Virus record (IMG/VR): IMGVR_UViG_3300005542_000010 | Coordinates: 1 to 46,919 of that record | DNA length: 46,919 nucleotides | Strand: one strand, 5' to 3' | From: a virus | Shown here: piece after piece, positions 2,907 through 44,373 of the stretch | Layout: each line of letters opens with the position of its first letter | Numbering within the stretch: position 1 is the first letter of the stretch | Position numbers and translations under genes: made by a program | Notes under the pieces: model-generated | The model's input: the letters and a program-made list of their open reading frames with translations, nothing else | What the model was told of the DNA's origin: nothing | Database searches by the model: none

Positions 2907-4838
2907 ATGGCACAGGAGGACGCAGCGGCGCAACTGCCGCAGATCATCATCACTGACAGCGAGGCGGCGCTCGGTGCCGCAAAGCGCCTCTTCCCGTCGT
3001 TCGAAGCGCGCTACGCCAACGGCGACGCCAGCACCGAATGGGCAGTGCGGCGCCGAATCGTCCTCATGCTCTCTGCGGGCCGCGCGACCGCAGCGTTCGA
3101 ACTCGCCGCGGCGCTCGCGGCCATCGCCGCCGAGGTCAAGGTGGTCATGCCGGAACCTGGGCGCCCCGTCGGTTGGTCAATCGCCGCCGAGCCCGCATGG
3201 GATACTGCGGCTGCGATCGCGTGGGCGAAGCAGAACGCGACGCTTTACGAACCTGACATTATTGACAGCATTCCAGCGCCCCAGGGTGCCGGGGCAATAG
3301 AGCCCGGCGCGGCTGAGTCCGTCCCCACCTCCTCGGATGACTCGCCTGCCCAAAACCCTGATGGCGCTGGAACCGCGCAGGAAGCGCCTAGCGAGGCGGT
3401 GCCGCTCGAAGCCTATGAGGACGAGCGGCCGCAGCAGACGCTGCCACCGCGCCGAAAACAGGCTTCCCCCGGCGAATCCGGGCACTTTCAGAAAGATCCC
3501 GACATGGAGCCGCTGCCGGCCGCCTTGTCGGACGACTCGCTCGCCAATCGACTTGCGGTGCAGCATGGGGAGGACTGGCGTTTCGTGCGGGCATGGAACC
3601 GCTGGTTCCGCTGGGATGGCGGCGGCTGGCGGCAGGACGAGGTAAACGCAATCGCTAGGCTGTGTCTGGACTTCACGCGCAAGGCGGCCAAGTGGCCGGA
3701 GGCGGCCGTGCTCTCGCCTACCGCGCAGCGGCATATCAACAGCCGGCGCAATGCTGGGGCGGTTGAGCAGAATCTATCGCACGATACGCGCATCGCCGCC
3801 CGGCTCGATCAATGGGACGTGGATCCGTGGCTGCTCGGCTGCCCAGGCGGCGTCCTTGAGCTCCAGTCCGGGAAGATGCTCGAAGCGCACCGGGAACAAT
3901 ACATCACGAAACGCTGCGCGGTGGCCCCGGAAGGCGGCAAGCCCGCGTTATGGCTTGAATTCCTGAAAACGGTAACAGCCGGGGATCAGTCGCTCATCGA
4001 CTACCTGCAGCGGCTCTCAGGTTACGCGCTGACGGGCGACACTTCAGAACACTCCCTTGCGTTCCTCTATGGCACCGGCGCCAACGGGAAAACCGTGTTT
4101 TTGCAGGTCCTCGCGGGAATCATGGGCGATTACGCGGTGTCGGCCGGGTTCGATACCTTTGCCGAATCGAAAATGGAGCGGCATTCTACCGAGATCGCCA
4201 GGCTGCGCGGGGCGCGCCTAGTCGTCACCGAGGAAACCGAATCCGGTGGCCGCTGGGCGGAATCTCGCATCAAGCGGCTGACGGGCGGGGGCAAGATCAC
4301 GGCGCGCTTCATGCGACAGGACGACTTCGAATTTACGCCACAATTTAAACTGATGATCGCGGGCAACCATAAGCCGCAGCTTCGCGCGGTCGACGAGGCC
4401 ATGCGCCGGCGTTTTCACCTAGTCCCCTTCGCGGTGACGATCGCGCCCGAAGACCGCGATAAGCACTTGGCCGAGAAATTGCGCGCGGAATGGCCTCAGA
4501 TTCTCGGCTGGATGCTGGATGGCTGCGTCGCCTGGCAGGAGTGCTCGCTAGGACTGCCGGAAGCTATCCAGGTTGCCACCGACAAGTATTTAGAGGCCGA
4601 AGATACGCTCGGCATGTGGATAGACGACTGCTGCGAACGCGAAGGCTCCTTCGTCTCGGCCGACGGATACCGCAATTATTCGGCCTGGTGCGATAAGCAA
4701 GGCGAGCGCGCTTGGTCGCGCCGCGCCTGGGCGAACGCCCTCGTTGACCGCGGTTTCGATACGGGCTCGAACGGCCTCTCACGCACGATCAAAGGGCTAT
4801 CGCTCAAGCTGCGCGACGCGCCCGCGTATCCTACCTAG
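2907..4838 (+). CDS. P4/D5-type phage replication helicase (primase-family C-terminal part)
   Basis: This 643-aa protein has a superfamily-3-like ATPase typical of phage/plasmid P4-family primase-helicases. A D5_N-like segment lies at about 210-370 (WLLGCPGGVLEL, YITKRCAV). Walker A is GTGANGKT at 389-396. ARLVVTEETESG supplies the Walker B acidic pair, and KLMIAGNHKPQL followed by AMRRRFHLVPF is the sensor and arginine-finger region. Residues 1-200 are Ala-rich then a Pro/Glu/Ser linker, with no zinc finger or primase active site that I can see, so priming may come from the host. The ATG directly follows the stop of the upstream gene. It is the likely replication helicase; its end overlaps the convergent gene at 4831 by 8 bases. 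Confidence 0.9.
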   Translation: MAQEDAAAQLPQIIITDSEAALGAAKRLFPSFEARYANGDASTEWAVRRRIVLMLSAGRATAAFELAAALAAIAAEVKVVMPEPGRPVGWSIAAEPAWDTAAAIAWAKQNATLYEPDIIDSIPAPQGAGAIEPGAAESVPTSSDDSPAQNPDGAGTAQEAPSEAVPLEAYEDERPQQTLPPRRKQASPGESGHFQKDPDMEPLPAALSDDSLANRLAVQHGEDWRFVRAWNRWFRWDGGGWRQDEVNAIARLCLDFTRKAAKWPEAAVLSPTAQRHINSRRNAGAVEQNLSHDTRIAARLDQWDVDPWLLGCPGGVLELQSGKMLEAHREQYITKRCAVAPEGGKPALWLEFLKTVTAGDQSLIDYLQRLSGYALTGDTSEHSLAFLYGTGANGKTVFLQVLAGIMGDYAVSAGFDTFAESKMERHSTEIARLRGARLVVTEETESGGRWAESRIKRLTGGGKITARFMRQDDFEFTPQFKLMIAGNHKPQLRAVDEAMRRRFHLVPFAVTIAPEDRDKHLAEKLRAEWPQILGWMLDGCVAWQECSLGLPEAIQVATDKYLEAEDTLGMWIDDCCEREGSFVSADGYRNYSAWCDKQGERAWSRRAWANALVDRGFDTGSNGLSRTIKGLSLKLRDAPAYPT

Positions 4839-5568: not shown

Positions 5569-5590
5569 GGGATTTATATACATGACTCCC
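5569..5590 (+). repeat. IS left terminal inverted repeat
   Basis: This 22-bp end starts GGGATTTATATACATG and ends CTCCC. It is the exact reverse complement of the right end at 7351-7372. The stop codon of the small terminal gene (5574-5576) lies inside it. The TATATAAAT stretch read leftward lies about 20 bases from the start of the gene at 5554 and could act as a -10-like element. Confidence 0.95.
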
Positions 5591-5702
5591 GCTGAACCTT
5601 TCTGCGCTTGCGCGCCCGCTTCTTCGCCTTCTTCGTCCGGGCGGGGACAAGGTAGGCCAGTACTCGGTCAGCGATCCGGTCTAGTTCCTTGGGCGGCTTC
5701 AT
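5574..5702 (-). CDS. Small basic protein at the 3' end of the IS
   Basis: This 42-aa protein reads MKPPKELDRIADRVLAYLVP followed by a Lys/Arg-rich tail (KKAKKRARKRRK). Short basic proteins with an LDRI...VLAY-type start are, from memory, found just behind the transposase in some IS1595-family elements; their role is unknown. ATG at 5702 overlaps the transposase stop by 4 bases (ATGA), implying coupled translation. The stop lies within the terminal inverted repeat. Confidence 0.6.
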   Translation of the reverse strand: MKPPKELDRIADRVLAYLVPARTKKAKKRARKRRKVQRESCI

Positions 5703-6619
5703 GCGGTCAGTTCCTTGTAGGTGATCCTGCGCTTGGCCGTGGCAGCGATCAGGCTGTTCAGCCGCTGGAAGGTATGGCGCTTCACGTTGCCCTCGTTCAG
5801 TCGGAAGGTGAACTCGTTGACGTAGCGGCCAAGGTGCTTGTCGCTGGCGTGGTGGTAGACGCCGTGCAGTCCGCGCTTGAGGACCGCCCACACGGATTCA
5901 ATGCTGTTCGTATGGACGCCATCGCGGACGTACTCGCCTGCGCTGTGGTTGACCGTCTCGCGCCCGAAGAACAAGCCACCCAAGCCACGGTAGCCAGCGT
6001 GTTCGTCGCTGTGGATCATGCTGCCGGGCTCGATGTGCGTGTGGATCGCCCGGTGCAGGTTGGCCGTATTAACGTCCTCGATAGGCATGGCGACGGTGCG
6101 ACCGCCGCGCTCACGCATTCCGAGGACGGCGGACTTTCCCACAGCGCCGCGCCCTTGCTTGAGCCGCTTGCTGGCGTGTTTCGCGGACTCTTTGCCGCCG
6201 ATGTAAGTTTCGTCCACTTCGATGATTCCGGCGAGGCTCTTGAAGTCAGAGCCGCAAGCCTCGCGCAGCCGCCCGAGGACGAACCACGCGGACTTTTGCG
6301 TGATGCCGATTTCCTTGGAGAGTTGCAAGCTGCTGATGCCCTTGCGCGCCGTGACGAGCAGGTACATGGCGTAGAGCCACTTGTGCAGCGGAACGTGGCT
6401 GCGCTCCATGACCGTGCCGGTGCGAACAGTGAAGTCCTCCGCGCACTTGTTGCAGCGGTAGTAGCCGTCCTTGCGCGTCGTGATCCGGTCCAGACCAGCG
6501 CAGACCGGGCAACGCGGACCGGAGGGCCACAGCCGCGCCTCAAGGTAGACGCGGGCCGACTCGTTGTCCGGGAACATCTTGAACAATTGGAATGTGCTGA
6601 TGGTGGTGTGGTCGTCCAT
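5699..6619 (-). CDS. IS1595-family transposase
   Basis: This 306-aa protein contains an N-terminal zinc ribbon (C37-P-V-C40 and C56-N-K-C59) followed by the DDE-type (ISXO2-like) catalytic domain. D136 lies in IIEVDETYIGGK, D205 in MIHSDEHAGY, and the third position lies in HTNSIESVW (N238/E241). The helical segment TARKGISSLQLSKEIGITQKS (about 91-110) is the usual HTH-like part. Its length is normal for the family and the ORF is intact, so it could be active. It starts immediately after the stop of the 6620-7033 gene. Confidence 0.95.
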   Translation of the reverse strand: MDDHTTISTFQLFKMFPDNESARVYLEARLWPSGPRCPVCAGLDRITTRKDGYYRCNKCAEDFTVRTGTVMERSHVPLHKWLYAMYLLVTARKGISSLQLSKEIGITQKSAWFVLGRLREACGSDFKSLAGIIEVDETYIGGKESAKHASKRLKQGRGAVGKSAVLGMRERGGRTVAMPIEDVNTANLHRAIHTHIEPGSMIHSDEHAGYRGLGGLFFGRETVNHSAGEYVRDGVHTNSIESVWAVLKRGLHGVYHHASDKHLGRYVNEFTFRLNEGNVKRHTFQRLNSLIAATAKRRITYKELTA

Positions 6620-7033
6620 TCAGCGCCCCGGCGCGTCGCAGTGGAGGGCGTCGCGGCACATGCGGCCAGCGCAGCCCTTGGAGCATCCGACCGGCCTTTC
6701 GTCGGCAAGAGGAGCGATACCGGCTGCTTCGGCCAGAATTTGCGACTCTGGAACGCTGCCTTCCCACTTCCACGCTTCGGGCAGGCGAGTAACGCCCCAA
6801 CCGGTGTTCGCCCACACGCCCTTGAGGCGGCGGCGAATCTCTTTGACGGCCTCCTTGGTCTGGTCCTTGTGCAGAACTGCAACGACTTCTCCGCTGGCGA
6901 GCTTGCCCATCGTGAACTGCCGTGCATCGCCGGTGACACTCAGTTTGCCGAGGCGAATGTCGGCAAGTTCGACCTGCCGCTTGGTTTCGTGGGCGAGTTC
7001 GGGGTACGGGTATTTCGTGATGGTGACGAGCAT
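6620..7033 (-). CDS. IS companion protein of unknown function, cysteine-rich C-terminus
   Basis: This 137-aa protein starts MLVTITKYPYPELAHETKRQ; ATG at 7033 follows the previous stop by 2 bases. The middle part (GKLASGEVVAVLHKDQ, then KEAVKEIRRRLKGVW) looks like a compact alpha/beta domain. The C-terminus carries CSKGCAGRMCRDALHC, four cysteines that could bind a metal. I do not recognise a family. Its place between the IS promoter and the transposase, in the same operon, suggests either a transposition helper or a cargo gene. It is not similar by eye to any other product in this phage. Confidence 0.7.
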   Translation of the reverse strand: MLVTITKYPYPELAHETKRQVELADIRLGKLSVTGDARQFTMGKLASGEVVAVLHKDQTKEAVKEIRRRLKGVWANTGWGVTRLPEAWKWEGSVPESQILAEAAGIAPLADERPVGCSKGCAGRMCRDALHCDAPGR

Positions 7034-7035
7034 GG

Positions 7036-7248
7036 CTACACCCAATACTCGAAACCGGCCAGCATCTTGTGCCGTTCCGCGCCAGTGCAGGCCGAGCGGA
7101 GTGCGTCTTTCATGTTGAAGAAGTCCCACTTTCGATCCGGCATCGTCGGAAGGTTTTCCAGCACCGTGCTTTCGCCGCACTGCATGGTCAGGAAGTTCTC
7201 TGCCGACTGTCCGGTTGCGCGAATGGCTTTGACGATTTCGGGGATCAT
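7036..7248 (-). CDS. Small IS companion protein of unknown function
   Basis: This 70-aa protein begins MIPEIVKAIRATGQSAENFL and ends LAGFEYWV. It is the first gene of the IS operon, with AGGAG five bases before the ATG at 7248 and a good promoter 32-61 bases upstream. No domain is recognised. The alternation of helical and polar segments fits a small soluble protein. It is co-transcribed with the next companion gene and the transposase. Confidence 0.65.
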   Translation of the reverse strand: MIPEIVKAIRATGQSAENFLTMQCGESTVLENLPTMPDRKWDFFNMKDALRSACTGAERHKMLAGFEYWV

Positions 7249-7279
7249 TTTCTCTCCTAAGTGGTTGGCCTACAACTGC

Positions 7280-7309
7280 ATTATAGGCACAAATCGGCAA
7301 GGGAGTAAA
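7280..7309 (-). promoter_or_regulatory. Promoter of the IS operon
   Basis: On the minus strand a perfect TATAAT (7285-7280) is preceded at 18 bp by TTTACT (7309-7304), close to the -35 consensus. It lies inside the right end of the element, just upstream of the AGGAG site and ATG at 7248, and would transcribe all four IS genes. Confidence 0.7.
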
Positions 7310-7350
7310 GTACTATTTTAGCTATGGAAAATACCGTTAATAATCAAGGA

Positions 7351-7372
7351 GGGAGTCATGTATATAAATCCC
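7351..7372 (-). repeat. IS right terminal inverted repeat
   Basis: These 22 bp, beginning GGGAGTCATGTATATAAA on the plus strand, are perfectly complementary to the left end at 5569-5590. The first TGCGTCA heptamer of the neighbouring array begins 7 bases outside this end (7379). Confidence 0.95.
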
Positions 7373-7378
7373 AAAACA

Positions 7379-7594
7379 TGCGTCAGCGCAAAGCATACTA
7401 TTGATACATCAACACTTTGACGCAGGCTTACGCAATGAGAGATATTCAATGCTTGCATTATGCTGACTAAATTGGACTGACGCATTGACGCAGACTGACG
7501 CATCCCGCCAATGGACTGCTCAGGCGCGCGTGCATACACCCGATAGCTAATTGACGCAGTGCTGCGTCAGTACGTCAATGTCGAAAGTTCGTCA
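7379..7594 (+). repeat. TGACGCA heptamer array (iteron- or operator-like)
   Basis: Seven exact copies of TGACGCA lie within 191 bases. Five are direct (7418, 7478, 7486, 7496, 7552) and two inverted, TGCGTCA (7379, 7563). Degenerate copies sit at 7428 (TTACGCA), 7571 (TACGTCA) and 7588 (TTCGTCA). The 7552 and 7563 copies form TGACGCAG-tg-CTGCGTCA, a near-continuous palindrome (7552-7569). By chance, about 0.02 copies would be expected in this length. Before the IS arrived this was the divergent region between the leftward trio and the late operon. A replication origin with iterons or a multi-site operator are the two readings; the sequence does not decide. Confidence 0.75.
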
Positions 7595-7774
7595 AATTGC
7601 AGGCCGGATCGACAGGCCTAAGGGGTTCGGAGCTGGCAAAGCGGTGCAGCAATCGGCGCCGGCAGCCGTCGACCATACGCAAGGCATTGATCTTCAAGAA
7701 CTGCGCATCCGATGCTAATCAATGCGCGTAGTGTGCAGAGCAGCAACGGGCGCGCCCATGCCTAGCAGGCACCC

Positions 7775-7843: not shown

Positions 7844-8398
7844 ATGTCCACCCCCGAATATCGAGCCGCGAATCGAGAACTGCTGGCCCAGCGACAGCGG
7901 GAATACCGCGCGCGAAATTTTCTGGCGATCAGTGCGCGGGGAAAATTATGGAAGCGGAAACGTAAGCCGCGGAAACGCGCTCGTGAGTACCGGCGCCGCA
8001 AGGAAGCGCATCGCTCGGCGGCATACAAAGAGCGAAAGAAGTTGTGGCGCCGAGAATGGCGTAAGCGGTATCTAGAGCGCCCTGGCCCGAAGTTATCGAA
8101 GCGATTGCGCGACAGGCTTGCGAAGATCCTACGCGGCCGGTTGAAGACTGGTTCTGCGGTTGCCCTACTTGGCTGTGCGCCGGCAGAGCTGGTTGCGCAC
8201 CTTGAGCGGCAGTTTGCGCCCAGCATGACTTGGGCGAATTGGGGTCCGGTCTGGCACGTCGACCATATCCGGCCTCTCGCAGGGTTCGACCTGACCGACC
8301 CGCAAGAACTTGCGGCGGCGTGCCATTTCACGAATCTACGCCCCTTGGCGAAAGCGGCGAACCTAGCGAAAGGGGCGAAGGCGGTTTACTTGATTTGA
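7844..8398 (+). CDS. HNH endonuclease next to the terminase genes
   Basis: This 184-aa protein has a very basic, helical first half (KLWKRKRKPRKRAREYRRRK at about 30-50) and a C-terminal HNH domain: VWHVDHIRPLAGFDLTDPQE, then CHFTNLRPLAKAANLAKG. The D-H pair and the Asn of TNLRPL are the core of the fold. HNH proteins encoded beside terminase genes can act with the packaging motor in cutting DNA (known for several phages); free-standing homing HNH genes look similar. It starts the rightward late operon. The ATG at 7844 has AGAGG only two bases upstream, so initiation may be weak. Confidence 0.85.
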   Translation: MSTPEYRAANRELLAQRQREYRARNFLAISARGKLWKRKRKPRKRAREYRRRKEAHRSAAYKERKKLWRREWRKRYLERPGPKLSKRLRDRLAKILRGRLKTGSAVALLGCAPAELVAHLERQFAPSMTWANWGPVWHVDHIRPLAGFDLTDPQELAAACHFTNLRPLAKAANLAKGAKAVYLI

Positions 8399-9087: not shown

Positions 9088-9221
9088 AACCGCGAATCAG
9101 GCTGTGCGCTTACGGCATTGGTGCTTGGTGGATTTGCTCCACGAGATGGGATCACGGCTTCGGTAAGACGCCGCGCGAAGCATGGAATCAGTGGTTCTCA
9201 TGGCGAGCATTGTGCCGATGA
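9084..9221 (+). CDS. Tiny conserved-type phage protein overlapping the terminase start
   Basis: This 45-aa protein starts ATG 9084 (4-base overlap with the previous stop) and ends TGA 9219-9221. It shows the recurrent phage pattern CAYGIGAWWICSTRW then GFGKTPREAWNQWFSW, i.e. W-x-C...G-x-G-x-T-P-x-x-A-x-x-x-W. Proteins of this kind are frequent in tailed phages but have no known role. It overlaps the 5' part of the terminase ORF in another frame unless the terminase starts at its later ATG 9218, which would give the usual ATGA junction. Confidence 0.6.
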   Translation: MKPRIRLCAYGIGAWWICSTRWDHGFGKTPREAWNQWFSWRALCR

Positions 9222-10873
9222 ACCTCGCCGAGATCGAGCCGCGCGCTCTACGTGATTTACCTGCGGCCGAGTTCGACGCGCTTTTCAGAAGTGCGCTCAA
9301 GGTCCAGCAGGAGGACCGCAAGCAAAATCAGATCCTCTACTACGCGCCGGCATCGCCGAAAATCCAGGCGATTCACGACTGCGCGGCGAAAATCGTCGGC
9401 ATCGGAGGCGGCAACGGCTCGGGCAAGTCCGAGGCGATGATCGTCGACATGGTGATGTGCGCAACGGGCGTCTTCCCGTACTCGCAGCGCCATCTCATCG
9501 AGCAGAAGTTCCGCGGCCCGATCCACGCGCGGCTCGTCGTTGAATCGCTGACGACGACGTTGGAGACTGTGATCCTGCCGAAACTGCAGTGGTACAAGTG
9601 GTCCGGCGTGGACGCGCAGGGCGGTGAGCGCGGGCACTGGGGATGGATCCCGAAGTCGAGCCTGATCGAAGGCGACTGGCTGCGTTCCTGGTCGGCGAAG
9701 TTGCGCGTGCTGCGCGTGCTGTGCCGCGATCCGCACGACCCGGACAAAATCTTGGGCGAATCCTCGATCCAGTTCATGTCGGTCGACATGGACCCGACCG
9801 ATTTCGCATCTGGCGACTTCCAGTGGATCGGGCACGACGAGCCGCCCAAACTCCCGCAGTGGCGCGAGAACGAGGCGCGCACGATGCGGGTCGATGGTCG
9901 CATGATGCTCGCCATGACCTGGCCCGATGACCCGTCGATCAACGTCGATTGGCTCTACAACGAGGTCTACGAGCCGGGGAAATCGGGCAGCGATCCGCAG
10001 GTTGCGTGGTTCGAGCTCTGGACGACCGAAAATCGCAACTTAAAGCAGGAAGCGGTCGTCGCGCAGGTCGAAAAATGGTCGACCGAGATCGTCAATGTGC
10101 GGATTTATGGCCGTCCGATCCGGTTTTCGAACCGGATTCACCCGGATTTCACCGACAACACGAAAACCTGGTGCTTCGGCTGCGGGAAATCCGTGGTGAA
10201 AGTGCAAAATGTCGCTGGCCGCGACGCTTGCGGCGCCTGCGGCGCGGAAAAAATCGTCGATTACTGCCACGTCGCCGAATTCGAGGCATCAAGCACGTGG
10301 CCGAGCGTGTTCGTGCTCGATCCGCATCCTCGGAAACCGCACATGTGGCTCTGGGCGCAGATAGATCCGCAAGATGACTGGTGGATCGTCAATGAGGGGA
10401 AGCTGGAAGGCGATTGCACGGAGGTTTTCAAGCTGGTTCAGCGCATGGAGTCAGAATTCGGTCTGCAGGTCGCGCGCCGACTCGTCGACCCGAACATGGG
10501 CGCGAGTCCTTCCGGGCAGAAACGCGAGATTACTTGGCAGGGCGAGTTCTCGATGGCCGGATTGCACTGCGACCTGGCCGATGATTCCGGCGTCGGGCGG
10601 CAAAGAGTCAACCAGATGCTCAAGCCGGACACGATGACGCTGCGCCCGCGCATCACTTTCCACGCACGCTGCCGGGATTCGATCTACCAGATGAACCGAT
10701 TTTCATGGGCCGACTATTCCAAGAACGTCGACCGCGACCAGAAGCAGACTCCATCGGATAAATACTCGGATTTTCCGGCGATGCTGCGCTACCTGGCGAA
10801 TTCCGATCCGAGTTTTCAATTTTTGAAGATGGGCGCACCGATCATCCACCGCAAGGACGCAAGGAGACACTGA
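9182..10873 (+). CDS. terL: Large terminase subunit
   Basis: This is the ATPase and nuclease of the DNA-packaging motor. Walker A is GGGNGSGKS at about 75-83 and Walker B ends in WIGHDEPP at about 214-221. A later segment RRLVDPNMGASPSG (about 430-444) belongs to the RNase H-like nuclease domain. Between them lies a zinc-ribbon-like insert, CFGCGK...CGACG (about 332-358), not usual in the family core. At 563 aa the length is normal. In-frame ATGs exist at 9182, 9200 and 9218; the last overlaps the stop of the 45-aa gene (ATGA) and may be the true start. The coordinates given use the longest form. Confidence 0.93.
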   Translation: MESVVLMASIVPMNLAEIEPRALRDLPAAEFDALFRSALKVQQEDRKQNQILYYAPASPKIQAIHDCAAKIVGIGGGNGSGKSEAMIVDMVMCATGVFPYSQRHLIEQKFRGPIHARLVVESLTTTLETVILPKLQWYKWSGVDAQGGERGHWGWIPKSSLIEGDWLRSWSAKLRVLRVLCRDPHDPDKILGESSIQFMSVDMDPTDFASGDFQWIGHDEPPKLPQWRENEARTMRVDGRMMLAMTWPDDPSINVDWLYNEVYEPGKSGSDPQVAWFELWTTENRNLKQEAVVAQVEKWSTEIVNVRIYGRPIRFSNRIHPDFTDNTKTWCFGCGKSVVKVQNVAGRDACGACGAEKIVDYCHVAEFEASSTWPSVFVLDPHPRKPHMWLWAQIDPQDDWWIVNEGKLEGDCTEVFKLVQRMESEFGLQVARRLVDPNMGASPSGQKREITWQGEFSMAGLHCDLADDSGVGRQRVNQMLKPDTMTLRPRITFHARCRDSIYQMNRFSWADYSKNVDRDQKQTPSDKYSDFPAMLRYLANSDPSFQFLKMGAPIIHRKDARRH

Positions 10874-34464: not shown

Positions 34465-34724
34465 TGGCTGCTGGCAATTTCTTCGGCGGACAATTCTTCG
34501 GCGGCGGATTCTTCGGCGCCATCACGCCGCCCGTACCTGCGCCAGCACCATCCTATCTCGGCACCGGATCGCCTGGTGGCTCTGCAGGCCCGCACAGCCC
34601 GTTCATGTCGGAGTTCAACGGCATCAAGCAGCGGTATCCGTGGGGCAAAGCCCCCATTGCCGACACGCAGGATGATGAGGACATGGCGTATATTTTGCAA
34701 TTCATCGCCAACAGGCTGCAATGA
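34464..34724 (+). CDS. Small Gly/Phe-rich virion protein
   Basis: This 86-aa protein starts MAAGNFFGGQFFGGGFFGAI, a Gly-Phe repeat often found at the start of small phage structural proteins. A Pro-rich linker follows and then FMSEFNGIKQRYPWGKAPIA with a helical end DEDMAYILQFIANRLQ. TGATG couples it to the previous gene and the end overlaps the next by 4 bases. No named family. Confidence 0.55.
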   Translation: MAAGNFFGGQFFGGGFFGAITPPVPAPAPSYLGTGSPGGSAGPHSPFMSEFNGIKQRYPWGKAPIADTQDDEDMAYILQFIANRLQ

Positions 34725-35008
34725 GACTCGTCCGCAAATATCCGCTCTCCCTCGTCAAGCAGCAGGAAGTCTCGCTGCCCGATGGCGCCGTACCGATGCA
34801 CGTTGCGGCACCTGGCGATCTTCTCTCGCTCTGGGCGCTCGTCAATCCAGCCGCGCCACTCGTAACCTGCACGGTGCGCATCTTCGAGACAGGCGAAGAA
34901 TTCCAGGAGTGGAATGCGGAGACACCTGACGGATTCCGTGGCGACCGTATCGGCAGTGTGATTCTAGAAAACGGGCGCGAGTTGCATATCGTGTGGCAGG
35001 TGAAATAG
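34721..35008 (+). CDS. Small phage protein resembling DUF7352
   Basis: This 95-aa protein has RKYPLSLVKQQEVSLPDGAV, then HVAAPGDLLSLWALVNPAAP and VRIFETGEEF. This is a pattern I recall for a small phage family (Y-P-L-x...Q-x-V-x-x-P-x-G-A...V-x-x...G-x-x-x-L-W-A-x-V-x-P...R-I-x-x-T-G). The function is unknown. It overlaps the previous gene by 4 bases and shares the last base of its stop with the GTG of the next gene. Confidence 0.65.
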   Translation: MRLVRKYPLSLVKQQEVSLPDGAVPMHVAAPGDLLSLWALVNPAAPLVTCTVRIFETGEEFQEWNAETPDGFRGDRIGSVILENGRELHIVWQVK

Positions 35009-43644: not shown

Positions 43645-44373
43645 TTAAGCCGTGACGTTCTTCTTCGCGTAATCGCGGTTCTTCAGCCATTCCAGGGCCG
43701 CGCCATCGCCGACGAAGAAAATTCCTGATCCCGCCGCTGCGGGCGCGAGCTTCTGCGCTGCATCGAGCGGTTCCATCGACCGCACATCCTTGTCGTCGCA
43801 AAGCGCCTGAAGCCAGCCTGCGATGCAGTGCGCAGAGCCGCACTTGTGTTCTTCTTCCGGCGTGTGGTCTGGATTCCAATTTTCGGAATGCCAGCCGCCC
43901 ATATTGAGTCGTTTCGGCTTCTTGAGAACGATTTCCCGCACTTCATCGAGCCGCAGGATTTCCTGCGGCTCCGCTTCGCCGTACACCCGCGCTTTGCCGG
44001 ACACCTGCGCTTTGCCGTACACCCGCGCTTTGCCGTACACCCGCGCTTCGCCGTACACCCGCGCTTCGCCGTACACCTGCGCTTTGCCGTACACCCGCGC
44101 TTCGCCGTACACCCGCGCTTCGCCGGACACCCGCGCTTTGCCGTACACCCGCGCTTTGCCGTACACCCACGCTTCGCCGGACACCCACGCTTCGCCGGAC
44201 ACCCACGCTTCGCCGGACACCTGCAAATTTTCTTCTTTTTCAAGCCAACCGCCGAGTTCGCCTTTGGCGACCACGCCGTACATGGTTTTAAAAGAAGCCT
44301 TTGCGCGGATGCGGTTCAGCGTGATTCCGAAAACGACTTTCTGCTCTCCGGTGAATTCAAATTTCGCGTTCAT
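43645..44373 (-). CDS. Hexapeptide-repeat (beta-solenoid) protein with conserved C-terminal domain
   Basis: This 242-aa protein starts with a globular part (residues 1-51, ending GELGGWLEKEENLQ), then 14 hexapeptides of the form V-S/Y-G-E/K-A-R/W/Q (52-135). Residue-for-residue regularity and the V at every sixth place predict a left-handed beta-helix or similar solenoid. The C-terminal 107 residues hold NMGGWHSENW, then KCGSAHCIAGWLQALC and GAALEWLKNRDYA. C-G-x-x-H-C-x-A-G-W is a motif I recall beside such repeats in phage and host proteins. The function is unknown. The 18-bp DNA repeat is open in all frames. Confidence 0.8.
   Translation of the reverse strand: MNAKFEFTGEQKVVFGITLNRIRAKASFKTMYGVVAKGELGGWLEKEENLQVSGEAWVSGEAWVSGEAWVYGKARVYGKARVSGEARVYGEARVYGKAQVYGEARVYGEARVYGKARVYGKAQVSGKARVYGEAEPQEILRLDEVREIVLKKPKRLNMGGWHSENWNPDHTPEEEHKCGSAHCIAGWLQALCDDKDVRSMEPLDAAQKLAPAAAGSGIFFVGDGAALEWLKNRDYAKKNVTA
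43969..44220 (-). repeat. 14 tandem 18-bp repeats inside the hexapeptide-repeat gene
   Basis: The 252 bases consist of 14 copies of an 18-bp unit, on the minus strand GTGTACGGCAAAGCGCGG or close variants (S/Y at codon 2, E/K at codon 4, R/W/Q at codon 6). Variation is at fixed codon places, as expected from selection on a protein repeat and from recombinational copy-number change. The three units nearest the start (GTG TCC ... TGG) are a distinct subtype. Confidence 0.9.

Follow-up and report, generated by a model that had tools for sequence, protein, structure and literature searches.

Textbook models expect a replication origin to open at an easily melted A/T-rich element. Replication of the satellite phage P4 involves two separated sites, and the record of Streptococcus phage Sfi21 annotates as its origin of replication a non-coding stretch (34487–34784) directly behind a putative primase, in which 18-nt inverted tandem iterons with CTTTAGTTACTTAGTTAC arms surround an A/T tract. 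The iterons bound by SaPI Rep and by SCCmec Cch2 lie a short way downstream of the respective gene; Cch2 binds through its C-terminal domain, and the iterons of SaPI Rep are likewise read by the C-terminal domain (PMC7581432). In a Gram-negative PICI the rep-ori segment replicates a plasmid, and two iteron sets flank the presumed melting region (PMC6092414). The origins of pRN1 and BIP-1 have been described as stem-loops with inverted arms of about 21 nt and a 58-nt loop (PMC4234260), and the same paper cites the winged helix of the P4 alpha protein as binding repeats.

We analyzed an array of TGACGCA heptamers in a viral stretch of 46,919 nucleotides, hereafter the window. Judged from sequence comparison, the array is very probably the origin at which the phage's own primase-helicase starts replication. 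The initial annotation had considered an origin and an operator equally possible; the comparative evidence strongly supports the former, and a master operator of the late operon was left unsupported.

The heptamer array and its surroundings

Across the 46.9-kb window we counted seven exact copies of TGACGCA within 7379–7569, five forward and two reverse (Table 1), where 0.038 are expected per 191 bp. The probability of at least seven copies is ~2e-14, or ~1e-9 once multiplied by all start positions. Three degenerate copies extend the array to 7594, and only five copies lie outside it, at 2368, 13428, 13677, 30010, and 43097. No other heptamer exceeds four copies per 200 bp anywhere in the window, an 18-bp tandem repeat at 43.97–44.21 kb excepted; this repeat (CGTACACCCGCGCTTTGC and variants, 43970–44215) falls within a leftward ORF at 43645–44373. 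The excess over chance, the two orientations, the degenerate copies, the palindromic pair at 7552–7569, and the single copies elsewhere had all been recognized in the initial annotation and were borne out. Its A+T-richer left half is also real (40% G+C in 7373–7477 vs. 54.5% in 7478–7600) but is not the conserved part. Megablast and blastn searches of the window and of the array gave no matches among GenBank phages.

The repeats sit in an intergenic region, and opposed iteron sets, 7478–7502 and 7563–7594, flank a central region. The 16-nt arms at 7478–7493 and 7562–7577 are 88% complementary; the arms are less perfect than in most relatives, the exact inverted match being only 9 nt long. The spacer between the arms holds 16 nt of alternating purines and pyrimidines, a run longer than any other in the window; it had been overlooked, as had the IS1595-type element on the left of the array.

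Table 1. Features of the array, its insertion-sequence neighbor, and the primase-helicase, in window coordinates
Feature	Position	Strand	Evidence
P4-family (D5_N + SF3 helicase) primase-helicase, putative replication initiator	2907..4838	+	TIGR01613, Pfam, alignment
C-terminal winged-helix domain (~residues 567–629), putative iteron reader	4605..4793	+	AlphaFold + Foldseek
IS1595-family insertion sequence between proposed origin and primase	5569..7372	-	transposase + terminal inverted repeats
IS1595 transposase	5699–6619	-	NF033547 201 bits vs. cutoff 75; Pfam DDE_Tnp_IS1595
Second ORF inside the insertion sequence, 226 aa, possible passenger gene	6620–7300	-	
Outlying TGACGCA iteron	7379..7385	-	exact match
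Outlying TGACGCA iteron; degenerate TTACGCA follows at 7428–7434	7418..7424	+	exact match
Proposed minimal origin of replication (opposed iteron arms with core between)	7478..7600	n/a	
Left arm: three direct TGACGCA iterons at 7478, 7486, 7496 (spacing 8 + 10)	7478..7502	+	arrangement as in L003
Alternating purine/pyrimidine core GCGCGCGTGCATACAC between arms	7524..7539	n/a	kept between arms in relatives
TGACGCA iteron, palindromic partner of 7563–7569	7552..7558	+	exact match
Right arm: inverted iterons TGCGTCA 7563, TACGTCA 7571, TTCGTCA 7588	7563..7594	-	

To the right of the array, a gene resembling endonuclease VII is found at 7844 and one resembling terminase at 9182. The genes of the window include portal, capsid, amidase, and terminase-like genes, and their content is not that of a satellite island. 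To the left, the insertion sequence is bounded by perfect 22-bp terminal inverted repeats (5569–5590 and 7351–7372), and the second ORF inside it had no significant Pfam or PHROG match. Beyond it come small leftward genes and then the primase-helicase, so the array is parted from the primase by 2.5 kb holding the insertion sequence and three small genes, an unusual arrangement. The left neighbor being a mobile element, the proposal that this was an ancestral divergent control region finds no support.

As the array begins 6 bp beyond the right end of the insertion sequence, it might be a regulatory or recombination sequence of that element. This reading is largely refuted, and we consider its chance negligible. 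The array lies outside the 22-bp terminal repeat, and in other loci, L003 among them, it stands beside the primase where no 22-bp ends are present. The 22-mer end itself recurs in 23 other viral (IMG/VR) stretches, often near transposases 65–98% identical, and the outer flanks of these copies are unrelated. In one other contig an 8-bp target duplication, AAAGAAAA, surrounds the same ends; the window copy has none (CTCCGCTG on the left vs. AAAACATG on the right), which suggests a later rearrangement at the left side of the element.

Arrays behind the primase genes of relatives

The first search found relatives of the primase in 14 viral loci. The closest (L003, 57% identity) has seven TGACGCA at 9864–10000, beginning at the primase stop codon, and another (L004, 50% identity) has six TGACACA ~130–290 bp behind the primase; other relatives carry different heptamers in the corresponding place. 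The initial annotation had proposed looking for the array in relatives, and heptamer arrays are indeed found there, just 3′ of the primase genes. A scan of genomes and another of viral sequences yielded 110 homologs, which fall into 50 clusters when grouped at 90% identity. Most 3′ flanks are built alike, with one to three iterons in tandem, then a spacer, then inverted copies of those iterons, and the array adjoins the 3′ end of the primase gene, a position that the window array does not occupy. Over the 50 clusters the inverted arms in these flanks measure 12 nt vs. 6 in controls (P = 2e-22); arms no shorter than 8 nt enclose a spacer of ~68 bp in 47 of the 50 clusters, although a few pairs may be due to chance. 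The longest alternating run has a median of 19.5 nt vs. 8 in controls drawn from 1,864 same-locus stretches (P = 4e-23), and shuffled sequences gave 9 nt. In 38 of the 47 clusters this run lies between the arms, though the loop makes up only ~20% of the region.

The inverted iteron plan is also seen in AcaML1, the Methylobacterium plasmid pMNOD03, and the Listeria phage B025, and in AcaML1 and pMNOD03 the core is of the alternating C/G type. The 3′ flanks of the distant P4-family genes of phiC31, Sycamore, pGEOTH02, and a Thermaerobacter plasmid had no such array. An actinobacterial locus (L037, Demequina flava) has iterons of the window's type, TGACGCA/TGACGCT, downstream of its primase stop codon (7404), despite a primase only 35% identical.

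We also searched IMG/VR from the array itself, with the pattern TGACGCA-N1..4-TGACGCA-N30..60-TGCGTCA. It occurs once in the window, where 0.00 are expected, leaving no second array of its kind, and in 32 stretches of the database. In nine of these (three of them near-identical) the end of a P4/D5-type primase gene falls between −9 and +37 nt relative to the array, and in five more the 3′ end of a PriCT, VapE, or PrimPol type helicase-primase lies beside it, so that a primase or helicase gene ends next to the array in 14 of the 32 loci altogether. About half of the loci have no recognized primase adjoining, and TGACGCA arrays can therefore have other uses. Four loci without a recognized primase (L129, L142, L145, and L148) carry a different type of TGACGCA array, ATGACGCA..TTGACCGC..ATGACGCA, which looks like an operator or promoter array.

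Such loci lend some weight to the alternative that a phage repressor or activator, bound at the heptamers of the window, controls the late operon from 7844. The array does precede this rightward operon, and one promoter-like match (7417–7446) overlaps it, but a single match is what chance provides (0.7 expected). Relatives of the terminase at 9182 (L017–L021, 48–68% identity) share the late genes and have no array upstream, whereas three loci with primase and array plan (L003, L004, and L043) have no match to the window terminase within the stretch examined. The array thus travels with the primase and not with the terminase or late genes, which speaks against the master operator of the initial annotation. 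An operator array would also leave the conserved alternating core and its flanking inverted arms unexplained, and we regard this reading as very unlikely. GC skew was rejected as evidence for an origin, since it follows gene orientation.

Putative initiator, core, and proposed mechanism

For the origin reading that we favor, the window genome has a gene for a putative cognate initiator of the P4/D5 family. Its product matches TIGR01613, "phage/plasmid primase, P4 family," with 290 bits (cutoff 108.7), and the Pfam families D5_N (2e-22) and DUF5906, and its Walker A motif GTGANGKT is intact. An AlphaFold model of the C-terminal 144 residues (500–643; mean pLDDT 88) predicts helices and a winged helix in the order H-E-H-H-E-E, the best Foldseek matches being the RFX winged helix 1dp7 (E 1.3e-3, probability 1.00) and the C terminus of AsfvPrimPol, the primase-helicase of African swine fever virus. 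The similarity of iterons tracks that of initiators (Mantel P = 0.0005). Once the remainder of the protein is allowed for, the C-terminal domain shows no excess covariation (partial correlation 0.11 vs. 0.13). The iterons thus track the helicase part at least as well as this domain, and covariation does not single out the putative reader domain. The window primase has neither recognizable TOPRIM acidic motifs nor the N-terminal zinc ribbon, which L003 has, so that priming may need another enzyme. The TOPRIM region (2907–3300) looks degenerate, with TDSEAALGAA and MLSAGRATA in place of VEGEKAADAA and WPDNDTPG of L003. A VRR-NUC gene lies immediately upstream of the primase gene.

We propose that the primase-helicase reads the heptamers by its C-terminal winged helix and that two opposed SF3 hexamers assemble, one per iteron arm. 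The initiator would then melt the spacer, aided by weakly stacked pyrimidine–purine steps or, alternatively, by a supercoil-driven B-to-Z transition, and bidirectional theta replication would start from the melted spacer. In an ancestor the primase gene may have been followed immediately by the origin; an IS1595 element would then have inserted at a distance of 6 bp and, together with a rearrangement at the left end of the element, shifted the array to its position 2.5 kb away.

The same displacement might have left a relic, a former origin that is now inactive while replication starts elsewhere. The 2.5-kb separation, the less perfect arms, the lost TOPRIM motifs, and an insertion-sequence flank whose lack of a matching target duplication points to rearrangement are what one would expect of it. 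Against this stands the integrity of the core and of all seven heptamers, which does not suggest long neglect, and the window holds no further array of this kind. A displaced pRN1 origin still worked when moved away from its gene, so distance from the primase is not disqualifying (PMC4234260). A relic has little probability in our view.

Iteron Rep systems are often autoregulated. The window array could accordingly combine both roles, as an origin whose initiator also regulates neighboring transcription, a reading that overlaps with that of a plain origin. The copies at 7379 and 7418, outside the conserved arms, would fit such a role, but the promoter of the window primase is not near the array, and we think the combination unlikely, if worth keeping in mind.

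The spacer of the window has 59% G+C, and an A+T-rich center of the SaPI/PICI type is absent. In the relatives the core tracts (e.g., ACGCGCGCGCACACACG) are mostly CG/CA repeats of up to 40 nt; their loops have a median of 57.5% G+C vs. 62% for the locus, and the alternating tracts 67%. One contig of 66% G+C (L023) has an alternating A/T core, ATATACATATGTATA, no more than 300 bp 3′ of the primase stop, suggesting that alternation and not base content is conserved. It is possible, if somewhat less than an even bet, that these loci represent a large undescribed class of phage origins opening at an alternating tract between inverted iterons and not at an A/T-rich element, the conserved trait of the class being alternation (pyrimidine–purine steps, Z-DNA propensity) in place of A/T content. 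Alternation itself may then be the opening element. Given the textbook expectation of an A/T-rich element, a conserved, mostly C+G-rich core bears directly on how SF3 initiators open the duplex.

Relatives of the primase-helicase occur in more than 1,000 sequenced phages (1,109 records), few of which have an annotated origin. The rule that an alternating tract lies between inverted iterons, close behind the primase gene, would permit origins to be predicted from sequence, and the same rule would yield the cognate heptamer of each initiator.

Comparison with known origins

The Sfi21 origin resembles the window in that it follows a putative primase whose helicase domain is homologous (E 8e-10 between the two primases) and has inverted iteron arms and a central tract; it differs in the A/T core and in an iteron based on AGTTACT. 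In the SaPI and PICI replicons (pri-rep-ori; SaPIbov1, EcCICFT073), as in the window, two sets of short iterons flank the melting region (PMC6092414, PMC7581432). Their origins lie directly behind the initiator gene, whereas the array of the window is 2.5 kb away; their center is A+T-rich, whereas in the window a mostly C+G tract of alternating purines and pyrimidines takes its place; and they are satellites, whereas the window belongs to a phage. The alpha protein of the satellite phage P4 (ori1/crr) belongs to the same primase family, TIGR01613, as the window primase. SCCmec Cch2 is likewise an initiator helicase whose C-terminal domain acts on direct repeats downstream of its own operon (PMC7581432), but its iteron is AAGTG, its partner is a polymerase-primase, and no alternating core has been described.

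In pRN1 (ORF904) and the Bordetella phage BIP-1 the origin is also found 3′ of a replication protein with SF3 and winged-helix domains (PMC4234260); unlike in the window, the protein has a prim-pol instead of a TOPRIM primase, and the stem-loop was described without iterons. The published dimensions of these stem-loops (PMC4234260) match those of the inverted iterons here, and they might be reread as iteron pairs. The layout of the proposed window origin is of a kind already known from SaPI/PICI and Sfi21. Its alternating, mostly C+G core looks new, as it is kept across most of the 50 clusters and the open-access literature that could be searched holds no report of a core of alternating sequence or Z-DNA at phage origins linked to a primase.
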